DNA of 64,000 nt from Terriglobia bacterium (lineage in GTDB: Bacteria; Acidobacteriota; UBA6911): the NCBI GenBank assembly GCA_020072565.1, contig JAIQGI010000016.1, positions 1 through 64,000 on the forward strand, given 5' to 3'. The translations under genes and the position numbers were made by a program. Below, in pieces: positions 13,600 to 23,817 of this stretch (within the stretch, counting starts at the first letter, position 1; each line of letters starts with the position of its first letter). The notes beneath the pieces were generated by a model, which had not been told where the DNA came from, searched no databases, and worked only from the letters and a program-made list of their open reading frames with translations.

Positions 13600-13872
13600 A
13601 AATGGCCCTGTATCAAATTTTTTATTCCGATCTTTGGCTGCCAAATCCGGGCGATTGTATCAGAATTGTCGCCAACGTAGGTCAAAAACGGGCGGGACCG
13701 AACAAGGACAACCCCAGAGATAGGCGCCGGCGCTTATTGGAGCGCCCGCATTCTCACCGTCTCCGGCTTTTTTCACGTGCCCGATGTTGTCAGTGCACGT
13801 TGCCTCCACTTTTTTTCTCCGCCATGTAATAATCAGGGCGCCTGCGCGTATGGGAGGTTGAGGCAACCGGAT

Positions 13873-14391
13873 ATGGGAACAGCCAGCCCTTCACTCTACG
13901 CGCAGCCCATGGCCATGACTTCGCCAAAGGGATTTGCCGAACTGTACGAACGCCATTATGCCGCGGTTTACCACACCGCCCTCCGCGTCACCGGGAACCC
14001 GGCCGACGCCGAGGACGTTCTGCAAACCGTGTTTCTCCGCGTCCTCAACCAGGGCGGACGCCTGGACCCTGCGCAAGTGCCGGAGGCCTACTTCCGGCGT
14101 GCAGCCACGAATGCTGCTGTGGACCTGCTGCGCCGCAGAGTTTCGCACCGCGAGGACCAGCTCGACGACCAGGCGGTGCATGCCGCTGCCGAAAGCCCGG
14201 CGCTGTTGAAGGAGCGGTTGCGGCGGGCGATCGCCACGCTGGGGGAGGACGATGCGGAGGTGTTCCTGTTGCGCTACGTCGAGGGGCTGTCCAACGGGGA
14301 ACTGGCCGAGATGTTCGGCCTGGAAAAGAACAACATAGCCGTTCGGCTGCACCGGATCCGGCAAGCATTGCAAGCTGAAATGGAGCGTTAG
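13873..14391 (+). CDS. ECF-type RNA polymerase sigma factor
   Basis: This 172-residue sigma-70 family protein has region 2 (FAELYERHYAAVYHTALRV through NAAVDLLRRR, about residues 17-95) and region 4 (AEVFLLRYVEGLSNGELAEMFG, then VRLHRIRQALQAEM). A GAGG site lies nine bases before the ATG. Downstream, 14 bases separate it from a zinc-finger/FecR anti-sigma gene, the usual sigma/anti-sigma arrangement. It probably directs transcription of its own cluster, including the ABC genes, when released; no -35/-10 motif of its own class could be identified. Confidence 0.9.
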   Translation: MGTASPSLYAQPMAMTSPKGFAELYERHYAAVYHTALRVTGNPADAEDVLQTVFLRVLNQGGRLDPAQVPEAYFRRAATNAAVDLLRRRVSHREDQLDDQAVHAAAESPALLKERLRRAIATLGEDDAEVFLLRYVEGLSNGELAEMFGLEKNNIAVRLHRIRQALQAEMER

Positions 14392-14405: not shown

Positions 14406-16868
14406 ATGTCAGAAGATCGATTGGAAAAAGCCCTGGAGGCGATGAAGAGTGAAAGTGCCAGTCCCGAGCAACTTGCCGGGGCTCGGGCTCGCGTTTGGGA
14501 AAAGCTGGGAAATCCCGGGATGGCGGCATGCGCGGAATTCCATGCCGGCTTCCGCGATTACCTGGACGGCCGGCTCGCCGGCAACCGGCAGCTGCTGATG
14601 GAAGACCACCTCAGCCGCTGCCCGCAGTGCCGCGCGCAGCTCGCCGAACTGAAGGGGGAACGGAAAGCGATCGTCATGCCCCACCGGCATGCATCCCGGT
14701 GGCCGATGTGGGGGGCCTGGGCGGCTGCTGCCGCGCTGGTTCTGGCGGCGCTCTATCTCGGGCGCGACCGCATCGACACGCTGCTGGCACCGGCGGGCCC
14801 CCGCGCTACGGTGACATCCGTCCGCGGAGAGCTCCATCGCGTGCCCGAGGGCGTGCTGCAGGCCGGCGCTGCCTTTGGCGAAGGCGAAGTGGTCCGCACC
14901 GGGCCCGGGGCCCGCGCGGTGTTGCAGCTTGCCGATGGTTCGCTGGTTGACGTCAACGAGCGTACCGAGCTGTTCGTGCGGGCTGCCTGGAGCGGCCAGA
15001 CCATTCATCTCCAGCGCGGCGATATCATTGTCCAGGCGGCCAAGCAGCGCCGCGGGCATCTGCGCGTCGAGACCCGCGACTCGGTCGCATCCGTGAAAGG
15101 AACCGTGTTCGCCGTATCCTCCGGTCTCGGCGGCACCGTGGTTTCCGTGGTCGAGGGCTCGGTGGCGGTCACTCAGCCCGGGGTCGAAGTCGTACTGAGC
15201 CCGGGGAGGCAGGCGGCCACGAACCCGGCACTCGCAAATTCCGTCCAGGATGCGGTGGCCTGGAGCCCCGACGCCGACACTTATATCGCGCTGCTGGCTT
15301 CGTTCGCCAGGCTCGACAAGCAGATCGCCGAGCTGCCGCCTCCGGAACTCCGCACTCAAGCCCGCCTGCTGCAGTGCCTGCCGCCGAATGCGGTGGTTTA
15401 TGGCGCGATTCCGAACCTCGGCGGCACCATCCGCCAGGCGATGACGCTGTTTGAGCAGCAGGCAGCCGACAGCCCTGCATTTCGTGAGTGGTGGAATTCC
15501 GGCGCCGGCCAGGAGCTGAAGCTGCTTATTGACCGCATTCAGACGGTAACGCCGCTGCTCGGCGACGAGATCGTTTTTGTATTCTCGACAAGTGCGCCGG
15601 GAGCGAAAGAACAAGTCCCGATGGTCGTTGCGGAAGTGCAGCCGGGCAAACGCGCCGAATTGGCGAGCGCTATAGACGCGTTGCGCGGCCAGCCGGCCGA
15701 ATCTCCGTTGCCGTATACCCTCAACGACACGCTGCTGGTTGTCTCCGACTCGCAGCCGCATCTGCAGTGGGTGCTCAATGGCCTGGGGCAGGGCGCGGCC
15801 ACACCGTTCGCCGAAGCAATTGCGGCCCGTTACCAGCGGGGGGCTGGCTGGCTGATCGGCATTGACATGGAGCCGACCGTATCGGCGGCGGCGCCGGGAG
15901 CCGCTGAGACCGCACTCGTGGGCGCGCAGCAGATGAAGCATCTCTTTATCGAGCAGCGTGCGATTCAGGGCATCGAACAGAACGAGGTTACGCTCACCTT
16001 CAAGGGCCCGCGCATGGGCATGGCTTCGTGGCTGGCGAGCGCCGGGTCCGGAGGCGCGGCCGAGTATGTCTCCAGCGACGCTGCGTTGGCAGTCTACGCT
16101 TCCACGCGCGAGCCGAGCCAGTTGTTCGAGGAGCTCGCCGCGCAACTTGCGAAGTCGGAACCGTCATTCACGGGGGGGCTCGCCGCCGCCGAGGCGAAGC
16201 TCGGCGCCGGTTTCGCCAATGACCTGGCTGCTGCATTCGGCACGGAATCGGCAATCGCCCTGGAAGGGCTCTCGGTGACCGGCCCGGTCTGGGTGTTGTC
16301 GGCGCTCGTGAACAATCCATCCGTCGTCGACGCCTCTGTTCAAAAGCTGGTGGATGCGTTCAATGCGGAGCTGGCGCCGGAAGATCAGGCCAAACGGATC
16401 ACCATCGAACAGGAAAACGCTGACGGGAGAATCTGGACCACCATGAAGCCCGGCCTTTTCCCGCTGGCGGTCACCTGGACGTACGACCGCGGCTATCTCG
16501 TGGCGGCTTCCGATCGGGGCGCGGCTGCGCGCGCGATCGCGACGCGCAACGGCGGCTCGCCGCTTGTCTGGTCGTCCATTTTCCAACAGCAACTCCCCTC
16601 ATCTGCCGGGTTGCACCCATCGGGCTTCGCCTGGCTGAATACGAAGGGTGCCTTGCAGGGCTTCGCTGCGCTGGTACCGAACCCGGCCCTCCAGAAATTG
16701 TTCGCCGAGCGCGACCCGATCCTGGTGGTTTTTAACGGATCCACGGAACAAATTCACGCCGCCAGCCGTATTCGGATATCGGGATTGGTACTAGACTTGG
16801 TGATGCTGCAGAGCCTGAGCCGGGCGCGCTCCGGCCCGATGACAACAATTGTTCCGCAGGGACGCTGA
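14406..16868 (+). CDS. Giant anti-sigma factor: zinc finger + TM + FecR + DUF3352-like region
   Basis: The 820-residue product begins with a zf-HC2 anti-sigma module (Cys42, His68, Cys72 and Cys75 in HLSRCPQC). One membrane helix follows (about 101-118), then a FecR domain (about 133-265, with VRGELHRVPEGV and VASVKGTVFAV). A roughly 530-residue extracytoplasmic region ends the protein. That region has two halves containing segments such as LPPNAVVYGAIPN and VTWTYDRGYLVAASD, resembling DUF3352 proteins. The predicted job is to hold the ECF factor at the membrane and release it on an outside signal sensed by the large tail. It abuts the next ATG with no gap, so it is in the same operon as the ABC genes. 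Confidence 0.85.
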   Translation: MSEDRLEKALEAMKSESASPEQLAGARARVWEKLGNPGMAACAEFHAGFRDYLDGRLAGNRQLLMEDHLSRCPQCRAQLAELKGERKAIVMPHRHASRWPMWGAWAAAAALVLAALYLGRDRIDTLLAPAGPRATVTSVRGELHRVPEGVLQAGAAFGEGEVVRTGPGARAVLQLADGSLVDVNERTELFVRAAWSGQTIHLQRGDIIVQAAKQRRGHLRVETRDSVASVKGTVFAVSSGLGGTVVSVVEGSVAVTQPGVEVVLSPGRQAATNPALANSVQDAVAWSPDADTYIALLASFARLDKQIAELPPPELRTQARLLQCLPPNAVVYGAIPNLGGTIRQAMTLFEQQAADSPAFREWWNSGAGQELKLLIDRIQTVTPLLGDEIVFVFSTSAPGAKEQVPMVVAEVQPGKRAELASAIDALRGQPAESPLPYTLNDTLLVVSDSQPHLQWVLNGLGQGAATPFAEAIAARYQRGAGWLIGIDMEPTVSAAAPGAAETALVGAQQMKHLFIEQRAIQGIEQNEVTLTFKGPRMGMASWLASAGSGGAAEYVSSDAALAVYASTREPSQLFEELAAQLAKSEPSFTGGLAAAEAKLGAGFANDLAAAFGTESAIALEGLSVTGPVWVLSALVNNPSVVDASVQKLVDAFNAELAPEDQAKRITIEQENADGRIWTTMKPGLFPLAVTWTYDRGYLVAASDRGAAARAIATRNGGSPLVWSSIFQQQLPSSAGLHPSGFAWLNTKGALQGFAALVPNPALQKLFAERDPILVVFNGSTEQIHAASRIRISGLVLDLVMLQSLSRARSGPMTTIVPQGR

Positions 16869-17858
16869 ATGGCACAGCCGGTCGTTGAACTGGACAACCT
16901 CAAGGTCAAGCTGGGACGGCGGGAGATCCTGCGCGGGATCTCCTGCCGTCTCGGCGTTTCCGGCGTCGGAAAAGCCGTGGGGTTGTTGGGACCCAATGGC
17001 GCGGGCAAATCGACCCTGATCCTGACCTTGCTCGGATTCCATAAGCCGATCGAGGGCCGCGCCCGTGCGCTGGGCTTCGACTGCCACCACCAGATGCGCG
17101 AAGTCCGGTCCCGCATCGGCTACATGCCCGAAACCGATTCTTTCATCGCCAACATGACGGCGGTCACCTTCCTGCGCCTGATGGCGGAGCTTTCCGGCCT
17201 GCCCGGGGAAGCCGCGCTCGAGAAGGCGCACGAGGTGTTGTTCCACGTGGGTCTCGGCGAGGCGCGCTATCGCGAGCTGAGGACGTATTCGCTGGGCATG
17301 AAACAGATGGCCAAGCTCGCTCAGGCCATCGTGCACGGCCCGGAGCTCGTGATCCTCGATGAGCCTACCAACGGTCTCGACCCCTCCGCCCGCCAGCGCA
17401 TGCTTAAGCTGGTCCGTGAAATGAAGGAAGAGCAGGGGATGAACGTGCTCCTGTGCTCGCACCTGCTGCGCGACGTCGAACAGGTGTGCGACGAAGTCGT
17501 CATCATGAAGGACGGCATGATCGTACACGAGTGCAATCTCGAGGAGGAACGGCGCTCGAACAAGTGTTTCGTCGAACTCGAGGTTACCGGCGACGACCAG
17601 AATCTGCGCGGCGCCCTGCCGGAAATCGGCGCCGACGGTGTCAGCGAGGGGGGCGGCCGCTGGCGCATCGTCCTGCCGCCCAACGTCGAAGTCCAGGTGG
17701 TGTGGGATCTGCTGGCACGGGAGAACCTCCTCGTGCGCAAGCTCACGCACCGCCGCGACACGCTCGAGGAAATCTTCTTGAAGGCGATGGGCCACATTGC
17801 ACATACACCGGGGGAAGGCGCCGAACTGCTTAGTGCCGGCAAGGCACAGCCCATCTAG
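16869..17858 (+). CDS. ABC transporter ATP-binding protein (first of two)
   Basis: This 329-residue ATPase has Walker A GPNGAGKST (about residues 38-46), the signature YSLGMKQMAKLAQAI, Walker B LVILDEPTNGLD and the H-loop LLCSHLL. The C-terminal 90 residues form a regulatory extension with the HRRDTLEEIFLKAMG tail found in ABC-2 type exporters. It begins directly after the anti-sigma stop and is followed by a permease gene, so it probably energises that permease. The substrate is unknown; ABC-2 systems of this kind move lipids, polysaccharides or peptides. Confidence 0.92.
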   Translation: MAQPVVELDNLKVKLGRREILRGISCRLGVSGVGKAVGLLGPNGAGKSTLILTLLGFHKPIEGRARALGFDCHHQMREVRSRIGYMPETDSFIANMTAVTFLRLMAELSGLPGEAALEKAHEVLFHVGLGEARYRELRTYSLGMKQMAKLAQAIVHGPELVILDEPTNGLDPSARQRMLKLVREMKEEQGMNVLLCSHLLRDVEQVCDEVVIMKDGMIVHECNLEEERRSNKCFVELEVTGDDQNLRGALPEIGADGVSEGGGRWRIVLPPNVEVQVVWDLLARENLLVRKLTHRRDTLEEIFLKAMGHIAHTPGEGAELLSAGKAQPI

Positions 17859-17920
17859 GTGTGGAGCGCCGGTGGCTGCCTTCCGTTTTTGAGGAGTCGT
17901 TTTCAGAGCAGGAGATTCGC

Positions 17921-18784
17921 ATGGCGGTCTACAGGCGTGGGTACCACCGGTATCAAGGTCGAATCACCGGCCACTGGACGCGGTTCATGGTGCTGCCCCG
18001 CTTTGCCTGGCGCCGGCTGTTCCAACAGCGCCTGGTTGTTCTCCTGACGGTTGCTGCAATGATCTGGCCGCTGCTCTGCGCCTGCTTCATTTACCTCACC
18101 AACCACGCCGAGCTGCTGAAAGGGCTTTTCGGAAGAGAATTTGAGACTTTCATCGAAGCGAACGGCAATTTTTTCATGGTTTTCATGAATGTTCAGGCGG
18201 CCTTCGCGACCTTTCTCGCCGCGCTCATCGGCCCCGGGCTGATCGCACCCGATCTCGCTAACAACGCTCTGCCGCTCTACTTCAGCCGTCCGCTCACCCG
18301 GTCCGACTACACGTGGGCCCGGCTCATCGTTCTGTTCGGAATGCTTTCGTTGATCACCTGGATCCCGGGTTTGCTTCTGTTCGGCATGCAGGTGGGCATG
18401 GCCGGCGCGTCGTGGTTCCGGGCCAACTGGACGATCGGCTCTGCGATCGTCGCCGGCTTCGCCATCTGGGTGCTCCTGGTGAGCATGGTGGCTCTGGCGA
18501 GTTCTGCGTACGTGCGGTGGAGAGTGGTGGCGGGTGCGCTCATACTCGGATTTTTCTTCATCCTGAGCGGCGTGTCCGTAATGATCAACGGCGTCTTTCG
18601 CGTGACCTGGGGCCATGCGCTGAATCCGGCATGGGCCGCCAACCGGTTATGGTGCGAGATGCTCAGCGTCGAGCCGCCCACGGGGCCCGGTGTGACGGCG
18701 TGCGCGTCAGTGCTGGCCGCGATCATCCTCCTGCTCGTGCTTGTGCTCGAGCGCAAGCTGCGCCCCGTGGAGGTGATCACGTGA
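17921..18784 (+). CDS. ABC-2 type permease (first)
   Basis: This 287-residue membrane protein has six predicted helices (for example WPLLCACFIYL, AAFATFLAALIGPGLIAPDL and the C-terminal IILLLVLVLERKL). The AGLIAPDLANNALPLYFSRPLTR-type loop is characteristic of ABC-2 permeases, where DxxxxxxxLyLsrPlsR is conserved. I chose the ATG after an AGGAGA site; a GTG 60 bases upstream adds a hydrophilic, unsupported extension. Its stop overlaps the GTG start of the second ATPase. Likely partner: the preceding or following ATPase. Confidence 0.86.
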   Translation: MAVYRRGYHRYQGRITGHWTRFMVLPRFAWRRLFQQRLVVLLTVAAMIWPLLCACFIYLTNHAELLKGLFGREFETFIEANGNFFMVFMNVQAAFATFLAALIGPGLIAPDLANNALPLYFSRPLTRSDYTWARLIVLFGMLSLITWIPGLLLFGMQVGMAGASWFRANWTIGSAIVAGFAIWVLLVSMVALASSAYVRWRVVAGALILGFFFILSGVSVMINGVFRVTWGHALNPAWAANRLWCEMLSVEPPTGPGVTACASVLAAIILLLVLVLERKLRPVEVIT

Positions 18785-19707
18785 ACCAGCCCGTGGTGAT
18801 TTTTGACGAGGTCTCGAAGTTTTACGGCGAGGTGCTCGGCGTAAACCGGGTCACCCTGCACATTCCGCCGGGAATCACCAGCCTGGTCGGGCCGAACGGT
18901 TCCGGAAAGACCACGCTGATGAACCTGATGACAGGGTTGATCCATCCCGATCATGGCTCGATCCTCATGCGCGGCCTCTCGCCCCGGGATCCCGAGCATC
19001 TGATGCGCATCACCGGTTATGCCACGCAATACGACGCGGCGCCTCGCTGGGCGACCGGTTTCAGCTTCATCACCACCGGCCTGCTGCTGTTCGGTTACAG
19101 CCGTGCCGAAGCGGAAGAGAGGGCGTGGAAGGCGCTCGAGCGTTTGAGCCTTACTGAGGCGGCGGAACGCAAGGTGGCGGCCTACTCGAAGGGCATGCGC
19201 CAGCGTGTACGTCTCGCGCAGGCGATCGCGCACGAACCCGAATTGCTGGTGCTCGATGAACCGCTCAACGGGCTGGATCCGCTGGTCCGCGCCGAAACCA
19301 TCGCGCTCTTCCGCGCCTGGGCCGCCGAGGGCAAACACGTGATTCTCTCGAGCCACGTCCTCCAGGAAGTGGACGTGATCAGTGACCAGGTAGTCCTCAT
19401 CGCCAACGGCATGATCGTAGCCGAAGGCGAGATCCGCAATGTGCGCGAGGAGATCCACGATCACCCCAGTCAGTTTGTCATTCGTTGCCGTGACGCCTCG
19501 CGTGTGGCGGCATTGCTCTTTAGCGAAGACCACATCACTGAGATCAAGCTGAATGACGACCGGATGGGGCTGCTTGTGATGACCCGGGACCGCGAGCAGT
19601 TCTCCCGGGCACTCGGCCGCATCGCGCGCAACGGCCATCGGATTGACAGCGTCATCCCGGCCGACGAGAACGTGGACGCCCTGTACGAGTACCTGATCGG
19701 CGGGTGA
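18781..19707 (+). CDS. ABC transporter ATP-binding protein (second)
   Basis: This 308-residue ATPase starts at a GTG that overlaps the permease stop (GTGA) and sits seven bases after a GGAGG site. Walker A is GPNGSGKTT, the signature YSKGMRQRVRLAQAI, Walker B LLVLDEPLNGLD and the switch region ILSSHVLQEVD. About 90 C-terminal residues form a small alpha/beta extension. It is a close structural relative of the first ATPase but differs throughout, so the operon encodes two ATPases and two permeases, perhaps a heteromeric exporter or two linked systems. Confidence 0.92.
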   Translation: MNQPVVIFDEVSKFYGEVLGVNRVTLHIPPGITSLVGPNGSGKTTLMNLMTGLIHPDHGSILMRGLSPRDPEHLMRITGYATQYDAAPRWATGFSFITTGLLLFGYSRAEAEERAWKALERLSLTEAAERKVAAYSKGMRQRVRLAQAIAHEPELLVLDEPLNGLDPLVRAETIALFRAWAAEGKHVILSSHVLQEVDVISDQVVLIANGMIVAEGEIRNVREEIHDHPSQFVIRCRDASRVAALLFSEDHITEIKLNDDRMGLLVMTRDREQFSRALGRIARNGHRIDSVIPADENVDALYEYLIGG

Positions 19708-19842: not shown

Positions 19843-21423
19843 ATGGATCACACAAACCAGATGCCTGCTGCCGAAACCCCGCCACCCGCCATCCGGTTCC
19901 CGAAACCGGTGAAGCAGGCGTGGACGATCGCGAAGATCGAGTTGCGGCGCGCCTTCTTTTCGAAACGCGCGTTCTGGGTCTACGGGCTGGCGTTGTTCCC
20001 GGCGGTTATCTTCTTCGGGCACGGCATCGAAGTGAAGATCCGGCGCGATCGCCTCTCGGCCCGCGGCCTGACACCGCCGGCCCTGATTGACAGCGTCACC
20101 AAAGGGGAATCCGCCGAGGAGGTGCTGAAGCGCCTTGGCCGGCCCGCCAGCGAATACCAGTGGCAAAGCCGCAAACGCGTGCGCGCCCAGGGTGAAACCA
20201 CGGCTGTGACCACCCACATGATCGAGCCGGCCGCCGAGGCACGTTTTGTCCGGCTGAACATCACCCGGCCCACCTACGGCGGCGACCCGACCGCGAGGAT
20301 CTACGAGTTTGAGGTTTACGGTCCCGACGGCCCGGCCAACCTGGCCCTGCGGCGTCCGGCCATCGGCAGTTCCCCCTGCACTTCCGACGAAGGGCCGGAG
20401 AAGGCCTTCAACGGCAGCGTCTCCCTCGGCAAGGACGACAAGTGGTGCTCACACGAGTGGGACCGCTTCCTGCAGGTGGACCTGGGGGCGGCCGTCAAGG
20501 TGAAACGCTTTGTCATAAAGCATGCCAGCGCTGGAGGCGAGAGCGAGGAGTTCGACACCCGTGAGTTCAATATCCAAGTGAGCAAGGACGGCAGGTTGTT
20601 CACCACCGTTTTGACTTCGACGGGGGCGAAGTTCGTGGACGAACGCACGTCGCACCGCATGCTGATTTATTTCGACGGCCGTCGCGAGGCGCGCCTGGAG
20701 TTTGCATACAACAAGCTGGCGTCAAGTGACCTCGGCCCGCTGCTGAATTTCGAGGAAGACCGCCAGGTGTTTGCCGGAGTATTCCAGTTTTTCTATCTGC
20801 GGCTGGCGATTTTCTTCGGCTGCCTCGGCATTTTCATGAACCTCTTCCGCGGGGAGATGTTGGACAAGACGCTCCATTACTGGTTCCTCGCTCCGGCGCG
20901 GCGCGAGGTACTGCTGGCCGGCAAGTACGGTGCGGGCCTGATCGCCTCGTCGGTGATCTTTGCGGGGGGAGCACTGCTGTGCTTCGCGGTCATGCTGTGG
21001 ACGCAGAACCCCGTCGAGGCGCAGGCTTACTGGCAAGGTGCGGGGATGGCACACGCCTTCTGGTACACGGCGGCCGCTGTACTCGGATGCGTCGGCTACG
21101 GGAGCGTGTTCCTCGCCGCCGGCCTGCTGTTACGCAATCCGATCATTCCGGCCGCCGTATTGCTTGCCTGGGAGAGCATCAACGGCTTCCTGCCCCAGAT
21201 CCTGCAGAAACTGAGCGTATTGTACTACCTGCAATCGTTGTGCCCGGTTCCGGCGCCCACCGACAAGAGCGCTCCGGCACTCATTCAATTGCTTCTGTCG
21301 CCGGCCGCGCCCGCGTCGCATTTCGGGGCTATCCTCGGCTTGCTGGTAGTGACCGCACTGGTGCTGTGGGTCGCCCGCATCGCCGTCCGCCGCATGCAGG
21401 TCTCCTACGGCGCCGAAACGTAG
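19843..21423 (+). CDS. ABC-2 permease with an inserted discoidin-like domain
   Basis: This 526-residue protein has a first membrane helix at about 43-60. A short BamE/SmpA-like stretch follows (VTKGESAEEVLKRLGRP, 85-101), then a discoidin (F5/8C-like) region at about 163-287. The discoidin hallmarks are NLALRRPAIGSS, FNGSVSLGKDDKWCSHEW, LQVDLGAAVKVKRFVIKH and FNIQVSKDGRLF. At least five more helices run from about 312 onward. The discoidin part would face outside and may bind glycans, linking recognition to transport. A 135-base gap separates it from the second ATPase, but orientation and content place it in the same cluster. The domain call rests on motif recognition, not a search. Confidence 0.78.
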   Translation: MDHTNQMPAAETPPPAIRFPKPVKQAWTIAKIELRRAFFSKRAFWVYGLALFPAVIFFGHGIEVKIRRDRLSARGLTPPALIDSVTKGESAEEVLKRLGRPASEYQWQSRKRVRAQGETTAVTTHMIEPAAEARFVRLNITRPTYGGDPTARIYEFEVYGPDGPANLALRRPAIGSSPCTSDEGPEKAFNGSVSLGKDDKWCSHEWDRFLQVDLGAAVKVKRFVIKHASAGGESEEFDTREFNIQVSKDGRLFTTVLTSTGAKFVDERTSHRMLIYFDGRREARLEFAYNKLASSDLGPLLNFEEDRQVFAGVFQFFYLRLAIFFGCLGIFMNLFRGEMLDKTLHYWFLAPARREVLLAGKYGAGLIASSVIFAGGALLCFAVMLWTQNPVEAQAYWQGAGMAHAFWYTAAAVLGCVGYGSVFLAAGLLLRNPIIPAAVLLAWESINGFLPQILQKLSVLYYLQSLCPVPAPTDKSAPALIQLLLSPAAPASHFGAILGLLVVTALVLWVARIAVRRMQVSYGAET

Positions 21424-21534
21424 GAAACTCCCCAACGTCTGAGTTCGGAACAGAAGTGCTTTCATATTGCACATCTCGTGTTAAAATGCGGCCGGAAAAA
21501 TTCAGCTAACCATCCCGAGCAATCGGAGGTAACG

Positions 21535-22317
21535 ATGACAAACCGTAAGTTCGAGCACGCCGCCATCCTTGCTGCGTGTTCGTTGTTGGCCTTTTTTGTT
21601 TTGATTGCGAATGCCGGTCCGAAGGATTTCTGGGCGACCAAGCCTTACACCGAGTGGACCGCCAAAGAGGTGGAAAAGATCCTTCTCAAGAATTCACCCT
21701 GGACCTACGTCCTGCTGCTGAACGCCCCGGCCAGTTCCGTCCAAATAGGAGGAACGGGCGGAGGCGGTGGAGCTTCGAAGGGGGGGGGCGGCGGTGGTGG
21801 CGGCGGCGGTGGTGGTGGTGAAGGCGGCGGAACGGCGGGGCCGCCACCGATATATATCAACTGGTACGCGCGCCCCATTCGTGAGGCTGTGGTACGCAAT
21901 ATGATGCTGGCCGCGCCCAACGCTCCCAAAGCGCAACTCGACGCGATCCTGAATTATAAGTCTGAGTTTTACGAAGTGATGCTCACGGGCTATGCTCCCG
22001 GCAGCGCGGGGAGAGGAGGCCGTGGGGGTCGGGGAGATCAGGGGGGAGACGCCGATGCCGCTCTCGCGAAGTTCAAGCAGGACACGTTTCTCCAGAAGAA
22101 GAACGGCGACAAGATTCCGCTGGCAAACATAATTGCGCCTCCACCGCGAACCAAAAACGGGGCCTACTTTTTGCAGTTTGCGAAGGAGATCGACGGCAAA
22201 CCCACGCTGTCGCCTGCAGACAAGGAGGTCACGCTTCAGATCAGGATCAACGACGCCAAATACAAATACCCGTTCAAGTTTGCCGACATGACGATCGGCG
22301 ACAAGCCGGAACTGTAG
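21535..22317 (+). CDS. Secreted hypothetical protein with a polyglycine tract
   Basis: The 260-residue product has a signal peptide (about 1-24). A conserved-looking segment follows, DFWATKPYTEWTAKEVEKIL then NSPW, of a kind I associate with acidobacterial secreted hypotheticals. Next come an almost pure Gly tract (about residues 70-95), a central alpha region, a second Gly/Arg-rich stretch (GRGGRGGRGDQGG) and a beta C-terminus (VTLQIRINDAKYKYPFKF). No enzyme motif is visible. The start is set by an ideal GGAGGT site seven bases upstream. The DNA of the Gly tract is a G-rich simple repeat likely to slip during replication, so length may vary between strains. Confidence 0.75.
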   Translation: MTNRKFEHAAILAACSLLAFFVLIANAGPKDFWATKPYTEWTAKEVEKILLKNSPWTYVLLLNAPASSVQIGGTGGGGGASKGGGGGGGGGGGGGEGGGTAGPPPIYINWYARPIREAVVRNMMLAAPNAPKAQLDAILNYKSEFYEVMLTGYAPGSAGRGGRGGRGDQGGDADAALAKFKQDTFLQKKNGDKIPLANIIAPPPRTKNGAYFLQFAKEIDGKPTLSPADKEVTLQIRINDAKYKYPFKFADMTIGDKPEL

Positions 22318-22650: not shown

Positions 22651-23817
22651 ATGTTCAAGGCGCAGATCAGGCGCGGCCTCCGCGTCGCGATATGGGGATT
22701 CACTTTTAGTTTTTTGATTCAGGACTGGCTGGCGGCGCGAAGCTATGAGGACGCGCCTTTTGCCGAGGCGGTATGGCAGTCCGGCAATCCGAACGCTGCC
22801 CAGGCCGTCAACGCCGTTGATCCGCCGGCGGAGCAGGTTTTCAAGAATATTCAGGCACTCAAAGGGATGCCGGCAGCGCAGATGAAGAGTGTGATGAATC
22901 TGATCGGCACGTCGGTGGGCATGAGATGCGAGCAATGTCACGTGCCCGACGCTAATGAAAAAGACGACAAGCGGGCCAAGCAGACTACGCGCCGGATGAT
23001 CCTGATGACGCAGGAAATCAACAAGGCGAGCTTCGAAGGACAGCCACAGATCACGTGCTACAGTTGTCATCGCGGCCAGCAGCGACCGATAGCGACTCCG
23101 CCCATCGGCCAACCCGCCGCGCCGGCTCCGGCGCCCGGGCCGCGTCCCGTCACCGCAGGCCTGCCGACCTTCGACCAGATCATCGATAAGTATCTGCAGG
23201 CCATCGGCAGCAGCGAGGCCTACGACAAACTGAAAAGCCGGGTCATGAAGGGCTCCATGATCGACGGAAAGGGCAATTCGTTCCCGGTGGAGGTTGATCA
23301 GGCTGCGCCCGACAAAATGGTAATGATCACCACCCTTCCCGATGGGGTGGCTGCACAGGGCTACAACGGAACGATCGGCTGGACGAAAAGCCCCAGCGAG
23401 CAGACCGAACTGAAAGGATCGGACCTGGCGCAGTTGAAGCGCGCAGCCGATATGGCGCGGCCCCTCAAAATCAAGGAAGAATCCCTCAGCCCGCGCGTTC
23501 TAGGCAAAGTGAAAGTGGGTGACAGAGAGGCGTATCAAGTCTCGGCACGGGCGGACGGCCAGCGTGTTCAGCTTTTTTTCGACGCGCAGACCGGATTGCT
23601 CCTGCGGCGGTTAGTCATGCGCAACACGGTTCTCGGTGCATTTCCGGAACAGACCGACTACGATGATTACCGGGAGGTCGACGGCGTGAAATTGGCTTTT
23701 GTGACCCGGTTCTCCGCGCCCGATCCATCCTCCGGATCAACGATTGAGTGGAAGGAAATTACCCACAACGTCCCGGTAGATGAAGCCAAGTTCGATCCCC
23801 CCGCGGTCCAGAAGTGA
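22651..23817 (+). CDS. Di-heme cytochrome c (photosynthetic reaction-centre cytochrome-like) with lipoprotein-sorting-like C-terminus
   Basis: The 388-residue product has an N-terminal hydrophobic signal and a CytoC_RC-like domain carrying two heme c motifs, CEQCH (93-97) and CYSCH (136-140). KNIQALKGMPAAQMKSVMNLIGTSVGMRCEQC is the type of helix seen in this family, which in Acidobacteria occurs without photosystems. After a Pro-rich linker (about 145-165), the C-terminal 220 residues form a beta-rich LolA/outer-membrane-lipoprotein-sorting-like domain (FDQIIDKYLQAIGSSEAYDKL onwards). It probably carries electrons in the periplasm. It converges on the Rieske gene with 16 bases between the stops. 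Confidence 0.88.
   Translation: MFKAQIRRGLRVAIWGFTFSFLIQDWLAARSYEDAPFAEAVWQSGNPNAAQAVNAVDPPAEQVFKNIQALKGMPAAQMKSVMNLIGTSVGMRCEQCHVPDANEKDDKRAKQTTRRMILMTQEINKASFEGQPQITCYSCHRGQQRPIATPPIGQPAAPAPAPGPRPVTAGLPTFDQIIDKYLQAIGSSEAYDKLKSRVMKGSMIDGKGNSFPVEVDQAAPDKMVMITTLPDGVAAQGYNGTIGWTKSPSEQTELKGSDLAQLKRAADMARPLKIKEESLSPRVLGKVKVGDREAYQVSARADGQRVQLFFDAQTGLLLRRLVMRNTVLGAFPEQTDYDDYREVDGVKLAFVTRFSAPDPSSGSTIEWKEITHNVPVDEAKFDPPAVQK

Follow-up and report, generated by a model that had tools for sequence, protein, structure and literature searches.

A predicted circularly permuted discoidin nested in a BamE/BLIP-like loop domain of a sigma-linked ABC-2 permease from Acidobacteriota

An open reading frame at positions 19,843 to 21,423 of a 64,000-nucleotide stretch of DNA from a Terriglobia bacterium (the window) raises the question of how a discoidin domain came to lie inside an ABC-2 permease and what it might do there. 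An initial annotation had placed an F5/8 type C (F5/8C)-like segment, together with a short BamE/SmpA-like stretch, between the first membrane helix (TM1) and the remaining helices of the encoded protein and had proposed that ligand recognition is thereby coupled to export. The product of 526 amino acids, here called permease 2, is encoded by the sixth and final gene of an operon that is read, like all the parts assigned to it below, on the forward strand.

The reading frame is real, and its assignment as an ABC-2 permease was borne out by fold matches and by the ATPase partners. Permease 2 itself scored 21.8 bits against the Pfam ABC-2 profile, below the cut-off of 27.2 bits, and its homologues L020, L033, L037, and L062 exceeded that cut-off. 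Foldseek matched the core of permease 2 to NosY (7o0y_D, TMt = 0.55, probability = 1.00) and the core of a homologue lacking the insert to the same chain (TMt = 0.62, probability = 1.00), with E values above 0.001 in both cases and with ABCG2 entries ranking beside 7o0y_D. In the AlphaFold2 model of permease 2 (mean pLDDT, 90.3), TM1 is a helix at residues 43 to 73 (positions 19,969 to 20,061; membrane part, about residues 44 to 62), TM2 is a helix at residues 303 to 335, and between them lies a beta-rich domain, mostly with pLDDT values above 90. Profiles, the alignment, AlphaFold2, and the fold matches place the remaining membrane helices at positions 20,743 to 21,420, with a conserved coupling-type loop, RGEMLDKTLHYWFLAPARREVLLAGKY, following TM2. 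In the established ABC-2 topology the loop after TM2 faces the ATPase, so the TM1-TM2 loop of permease 2 is implied to be extracytoplasmic; the outward direction of transport is likewise assumed from the ABC-2 type.

The operon begins with an ECF sigma factor gene (positions 13,777 to 14,391; Sigma70_r2, E = 3.6 × 10−16; Sigma70_r4_2, E = 1 × 10−13), which is syntenic in relatives and whose real start is probably an ATG further downstream. It is followed by a gene for an anti-sigma-type protein (14,406 to 16,868) that combines a zf-HC2 domain (E = 2.2 × 10−4), one predicted membrane helix, and a FecR domain (E = 2.6 × 10−17), the zf-HC2 part being expected in the cytoplasm and the FecR part in the periplasm. 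The C-terminal part of this protein, about 500 amino acids long, belongs to no Pfam family, yet it is conserved: over about 530 residues (15,276 to 16,865), the best Pfam match was DUF3710 (E = 0.051), and the region, at about 25 to 68% identity, is kept with the operon across the phylum as an uncharacterized and probably periplasmic domain. Next come the genes for ABC ATPase 1 (16,869 to 17,858; ABC_tran, E = 1.3 × 10−26), for the ABC-2-like permease 1 (17,861 to 18,784), which gave a weak match to ABC2_membrane_2, is syntenic, and has no large extracytoplasmic domain, and for ABC ATPase 2 (18,781 to 19,707; ABC_tran, E = 1.2 × 10−26), whose GTG start at 18,781 overlaps the stop of permease 1. 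Permease 2 is thus accompanied by two ABC_tran ATPase genes, and these are syntenic. In one relative, L007 (6,365 to 7,021), permease 1 lacks about 70 residues (query residues 82 to 152) that the other relatives have, reflecting either a deletion or an assembly error.

We compared gene order across 17 loci; because L006 and L098 share one contig, these represent 16 relatives. The six-gene order (ECF sigma factor, FecR-type anti-sigma protein, ATPase 1, permease 1, ATPase 2, permease 2) was present alongside every architecture of the TM1-TM2 loop; at L095, L096, L099, and L105 no sigma gene was found on the sequence covered, which in these cases stops at the upstream genes or close to them. These results indicate that the operon is old and that the loop domains joined a pre-existing transporter while leaving its gene neighborhood unaltered. 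Computation thus shows permease 2 to be part of a conserved two-ATPase, two-permease transporter of the NosY/ABCG-like kind (type V, ABC-2). The membrane core shares its fold with NosY of NosDFY and with ABCG transporters, but the system differs from both in its large TM1-TM2 loop domain, its two distinct permeases and ATPases, and its sigma/anti-sigma genes, and its six-gene operon has no NosD- or NosZ-like gene. NCBIfam held no family for permease 1 or permease 2. A link to defense systems was rejected because PADLOC had no family for either permease or for the FecR protein and its matches to the ATPases were generic, and a search for spread on plasmids gave as its sole match a short discoidin stretch in a Metabacillus plasmid.

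The presence of an F5/8C segment between TM1 and TM2 was confirmed both by its placement in the AlphaFold2 model and by the Pfam profile PF00754 (54.6 bits, E = 1.5 × 10−14, cut-off of 28.2 bits), which matched permease 2 in two stretches. The domain covers about residues 118 to 268 (positions 20,194 to 20,646) rather than the residues 163 to 287 first assigned to it. A canonical F5/8C domain ends with the motif ARYVRL...EFEVYG. In permease 2, the corresponding ARFVRLN...ARIYEFEVYG (residues ~133 to 160) precedes NLALRRPA (residue 166 onward), which is a canonical beginning, so that the canonical strand order is absent and the last two strands (residues ~120 to 160) stand before the start (residue ~166). 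Residues 120 to 151 (20,200 to 20,295), searched as a separate piece, matched PF00754 positions 93 to 123, the canonical C-terminal strands; residues 176 to 263 (20,368 to 20,631) correspond to PF00754 positions 5 to 87, the canonical N-terminal and middle part, and this second piece alone matched positions 5 to 82 with 43.1 bits. When the pieces were put in canonical order, the two stretches seen in native order became one (positions 5 to 121, 63.7 bits). Furthermore, a profile of 12 homologous domains searched against solved structures displayed the same swap relative to the CBM32 of EndoD (2xqx, E = 2.6 × 10−7), and against the glucanase discoidin 2rva, query positions 48 to 153 aligned with chain positions 5 to 106 and query positions 14 to 44 with chain positions 109 to 137, the second piece of the alignment being weak taken alone. 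AlphaFold2 predicted confident strands across the discoidin, from residues 122 to 142 through residues 264 to 277. Near the top of the Foldseek list for permease 2 stood a single likely discoidin-bearing entry (6eon), and its match was weak, as a permuted fold would lead one to expect. Cysteines C179 and C202 (20,377 to 20,448) are invariant in 15 of the 15 discoidin-bearing homologues and form a candidate disulfide, which would fit an extracytoplasmic site.

Computation on the sequence shows the discoidin as circularly permuted, its original termini apparently joined and its new termini lying ahead of the penultimate strand. That both pieces form one jelly-roll rests on the complementarity of the profile matches, conservation, and predicted-model confidence. 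The loop could instead hold the remnants of two discoidins, the C-terminal piece of one followed by the N-terminal piece of another, since truncated tandem copies would yield the same order and repeated discoidins with Ig-like domains between them do occur in the phylum. We give this alternative very little credence: the pieces sum to a nearly complete domain (positions 5 to 87 and 93 to 123 of 127) with no overlap and no missing strand, all 15 discoidin-bearing homologues keep both pieces, pLDDT is high, and each piece in turn aligns in order with single domains of solved structure. The probable origin of a single permuted domain is a duplicated or tandem discoidin that then lost its outer parts. 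Compared with the CBM32/F5/8C domains of EndoD (2xqx), the glucanase (2rva), and 4zz5, the permease 2 domain shares sequence motifs and strand content but differs in its permuted order and in lying within a permease loop rather than being appended to a secreted enzyme or adhesin. Circular permutation at a domain insertion site appears to be uncommon among discoidins; in 396 genomes of the phylum, we found no permuted discoidin beyond this permease family. Additional hits in three genomes (G246, G330, and G337; L087 to L092) were rejected as permuted copies; there, frames of 2,720 to 2,768 amino acids carry canonical discoidins alternating with Ig-like domains. Within an incomplete coverage of the literature, we found no paper describing a permuted discoidin or this architecture.

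The BamE/SmpA-like stretch proved to be real as well, not as a neighbor of the discoidin but as its host. After excision of the insert from permease 2, PF04355 matched the remaining loop (E = 0.0074, 16.5 bits), below the cut-off of 23.2 bits, and we therefore name the domain BamE-like and not BamE. Among 25 homologues (set A2), Pfam assigned BamE to 5 (best E = 1.1 × 10−5), DUF2845 to 4, and BLIP to 1. Homologues from Bryobacterales-type genomes have no insert but retain a loop domain with G....EVL...G.P and, later, YFDG.RR..L.F..G.L. In the AlphaFold2 model of one insert-free homologue (mean pLDDT, 86.5), TM1 and TM2 flank two helices followed by four strands (alpha-alpha-beta-beta-beta-beta), and Foldseek returned BLIP entries for this loop domain (3e2k_C, E = 0.014, probability = 1.00). 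In permease 2, the first half of the domain, with two helices and beta1, spans residues 79 to 117 (20,077 to 20,193) on the evidence of profiles, AlphaFold2, and Foldseek, and the second half, with the remaining strands, spans residues ~269 to 299 (20,647 to 20,739) on that of the alignment and AlphaFold2; part of what had been read as discoidin thus belongs to this second half. The insert sits between beta1 (residues 103 to 114) and the strand at residues 264 to 277. Computation thus shows that a BamE/BLIP-like domain fills the TM1-TM2 loop and that the discoidin is inserted between its beta1 and beta2. With BamE/SmpA and BLIP (PF04355, PF07467, and DUF2845), the domain shares two helices and antiparallel strands, but it lies between the membrane helices of a permease, not in a lipoprotein of the Bam complex or a secreted inhibitor, and is split between beta1 and beta2. 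The circular permutation and the nesting had gone unnoticed in the initial annotation.

Since the genome and many of its relatives are draft assemblies, such an architecture could in principle be an artefact of assembly or annotation that joined unrelated reading frames. The same architecture recurs, however, in a single open frame in different genomes and several families, 15 homologues having been aligned, and the GC3 of the insert (0.839) resembles that of the rest of the gene. The independent homologues refute an artefact, to which we assign virtually no weight.

To order the loop states, we used a midpoint-rooted tree built from the permease core only, with the loop excluded. Its rows comprised 4 with no loop domain, 28 with the BamE-like domain, and 15 with the discoidin, and the states could be ordered with three changes, the minimum. 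A single branch (support, 100/96) held all 15 discoidin-bearing rows and L020 (L020/L103, G014), in which some 50 residues of Pro/Ala-rich linker occupy the discoidin site; for L020, loss of the discoidin and its never having been present could not be told apart (p-AU = 0.223). We infer that the loop grew in two steps, the BamE/BLIP-like domain first and the discoidin next, the direction (gain, not loss) following from the midpoint root. The discoidin form was found in 10 of the 15 genomes of the window's family and in 5 of the 162 genomes of the order of G347, spread over four families and including L006, which is labeled Vicinamibacterales. These five form one clade (100/99) within the diversity of the window's family, suggesting transfer between lineages. 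Many Acidobacteriota relatives have the same transporter without the discoidin, and together with the linker of L020 this indicates that the transporter can do its basic work without the module.

The domain may be passive, a structural or spacer element or an aid to assembly with permease 1 that binds no ligand. The linker of L020 at the same site and the many genomes whose transporter lacks a discoidin are consistent with such a role, and so is the fact that the best solved relative is the CBM32 of EndoD but a retained binding site is not evident in the profiles. Across eight pairs, dN/dS was 0.15 to 0.33 for the discoidin and 0.10 to 0.17 for the membrane core, with looser values of 0.18 to 1.0 for the BamE-like part, which has few codons; the discoidin values exceed those of the core yet stay well under 1, so the discoidin is under purifying selection, and about 40 positions of its alignment are invariant. 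Both results suggest more than a spacer, and we consider a passive role unlikely. The initial annotation's claim of a ligand-binding-type module within an ABC-2 permease is upheld by the profile matches, the predicted structures, the existence of homologues that carry or lack the insert, and the purifying selection.

Discoidins elsewhere bind glycans or lipid head groups, and BamE-like folds elsewhere make protein-protein contacts (BLIP and BamE). By analogy, the discoidin probably lets the exporter grip a component of the cell envelope. The reading we lean toward, with modest confidence, is that of an envelope-responsive, sigma-linked NosY/ABCG-like exporter whose BamE/BLIP-like host domain and permuted discoidin engage partners or cargo. 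The BamE-like domain would serve in the periplasm as a stalk or as a docking site for proteins. By virtue of its permuted termini, the discoidin is anchored through two strands of its host; it would stand atop the loop, bind an envelope glycan, a lipid head group, or a glycosylated partner, and so position either the exporter or the cargo. Expression would be tuned by the sigma/anti-sigma pair to the state of the envelope, as for exporters involved in detoxification or envelope maintenance. More tentatively, and with doubt outweighing belief, we propose that the Acidobacteriota possess a widespread, undescribed class of sigma/anti-sigma-coupled ABC-2 exporters whose specificity evolves as domains are nested step by step into one loop, most recently the permuted discoidin as a receptor for an envelope ligand.

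Recognition of exported cargo, coupled directly to export as the initial annotation had it, is favored by the position of the discoidin in the predicted extracytoplasmic loop, by analogy with ABC exporters that bear extracytoplasmic domains, among them NatAB, LnrLMN, and Bce-type transporters with extracellular domains (PMC11466899). The core of the transporter is conserved even where the module is absent, however, and a discoidin docked to some fixed part of the envelope would produce identical anatomy, and we doubt that cargo recognition is its role. In type V/VI hybrid exporters of Bacillus such as NatAB and LnrLMN, the extracellular domains resemble the LptFG jelly-rolls in size and location; most are of unknown fold, with no known fold matched for those of YhaQP, LnrLMN, and NatAB, and Bce-type transporters have a single variable extracellular domain proposed to recognize peptides (PMC11466899). 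With YhaQP, LnrLMN, NatAB, and LptFG, permease 2 shares a type V-like membrane domain and a sizeable extracytoplasmic domain, which in LptFG is a beta jelly-roll; unlike those of YhaQP, LnrLMN, and NatAB, its domains are recognizable (BamE-like and discoidin), and the likeness is one of description. Permease 2 belongs to this general kind, with recognizable domains, a nested insertion, and a permutation in addition. BceAB with its sensor kinase is also an exporter with one extracytoplasmic domain genetically tied to a signaling pair, but BceB is a type VII (FtsX/MacB-type) permease working with a histidine kinase, whereas here we found an ABC-2 type permease with a NosY/ABCG-type fold, an ECF sigma factor, and FecR/zf-HC2 partners.

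The living intermediates (no domain, the BamE-like domain, the added permuted discoidin, and the linker) allow the gain of a domain within a domain to be studied, and in a phylum that has received little study the operon offers a concrete candidate, open to testing, for an envelope-responsive exporter. Directly 3' of permease 2, a frame at 21,478 to 22,317 encodes 279 amino acids that include long Gly-rich stretches and match no family. Also beside the operon, a frame at 22,651 to 23,817 matches CytoC_RC, the photosynthetic reaction-center-type cytochrome subunit (E = 9.3 × 10−17), and continues into a long C-terminal part for which a weak DUF2092 match was the only one.
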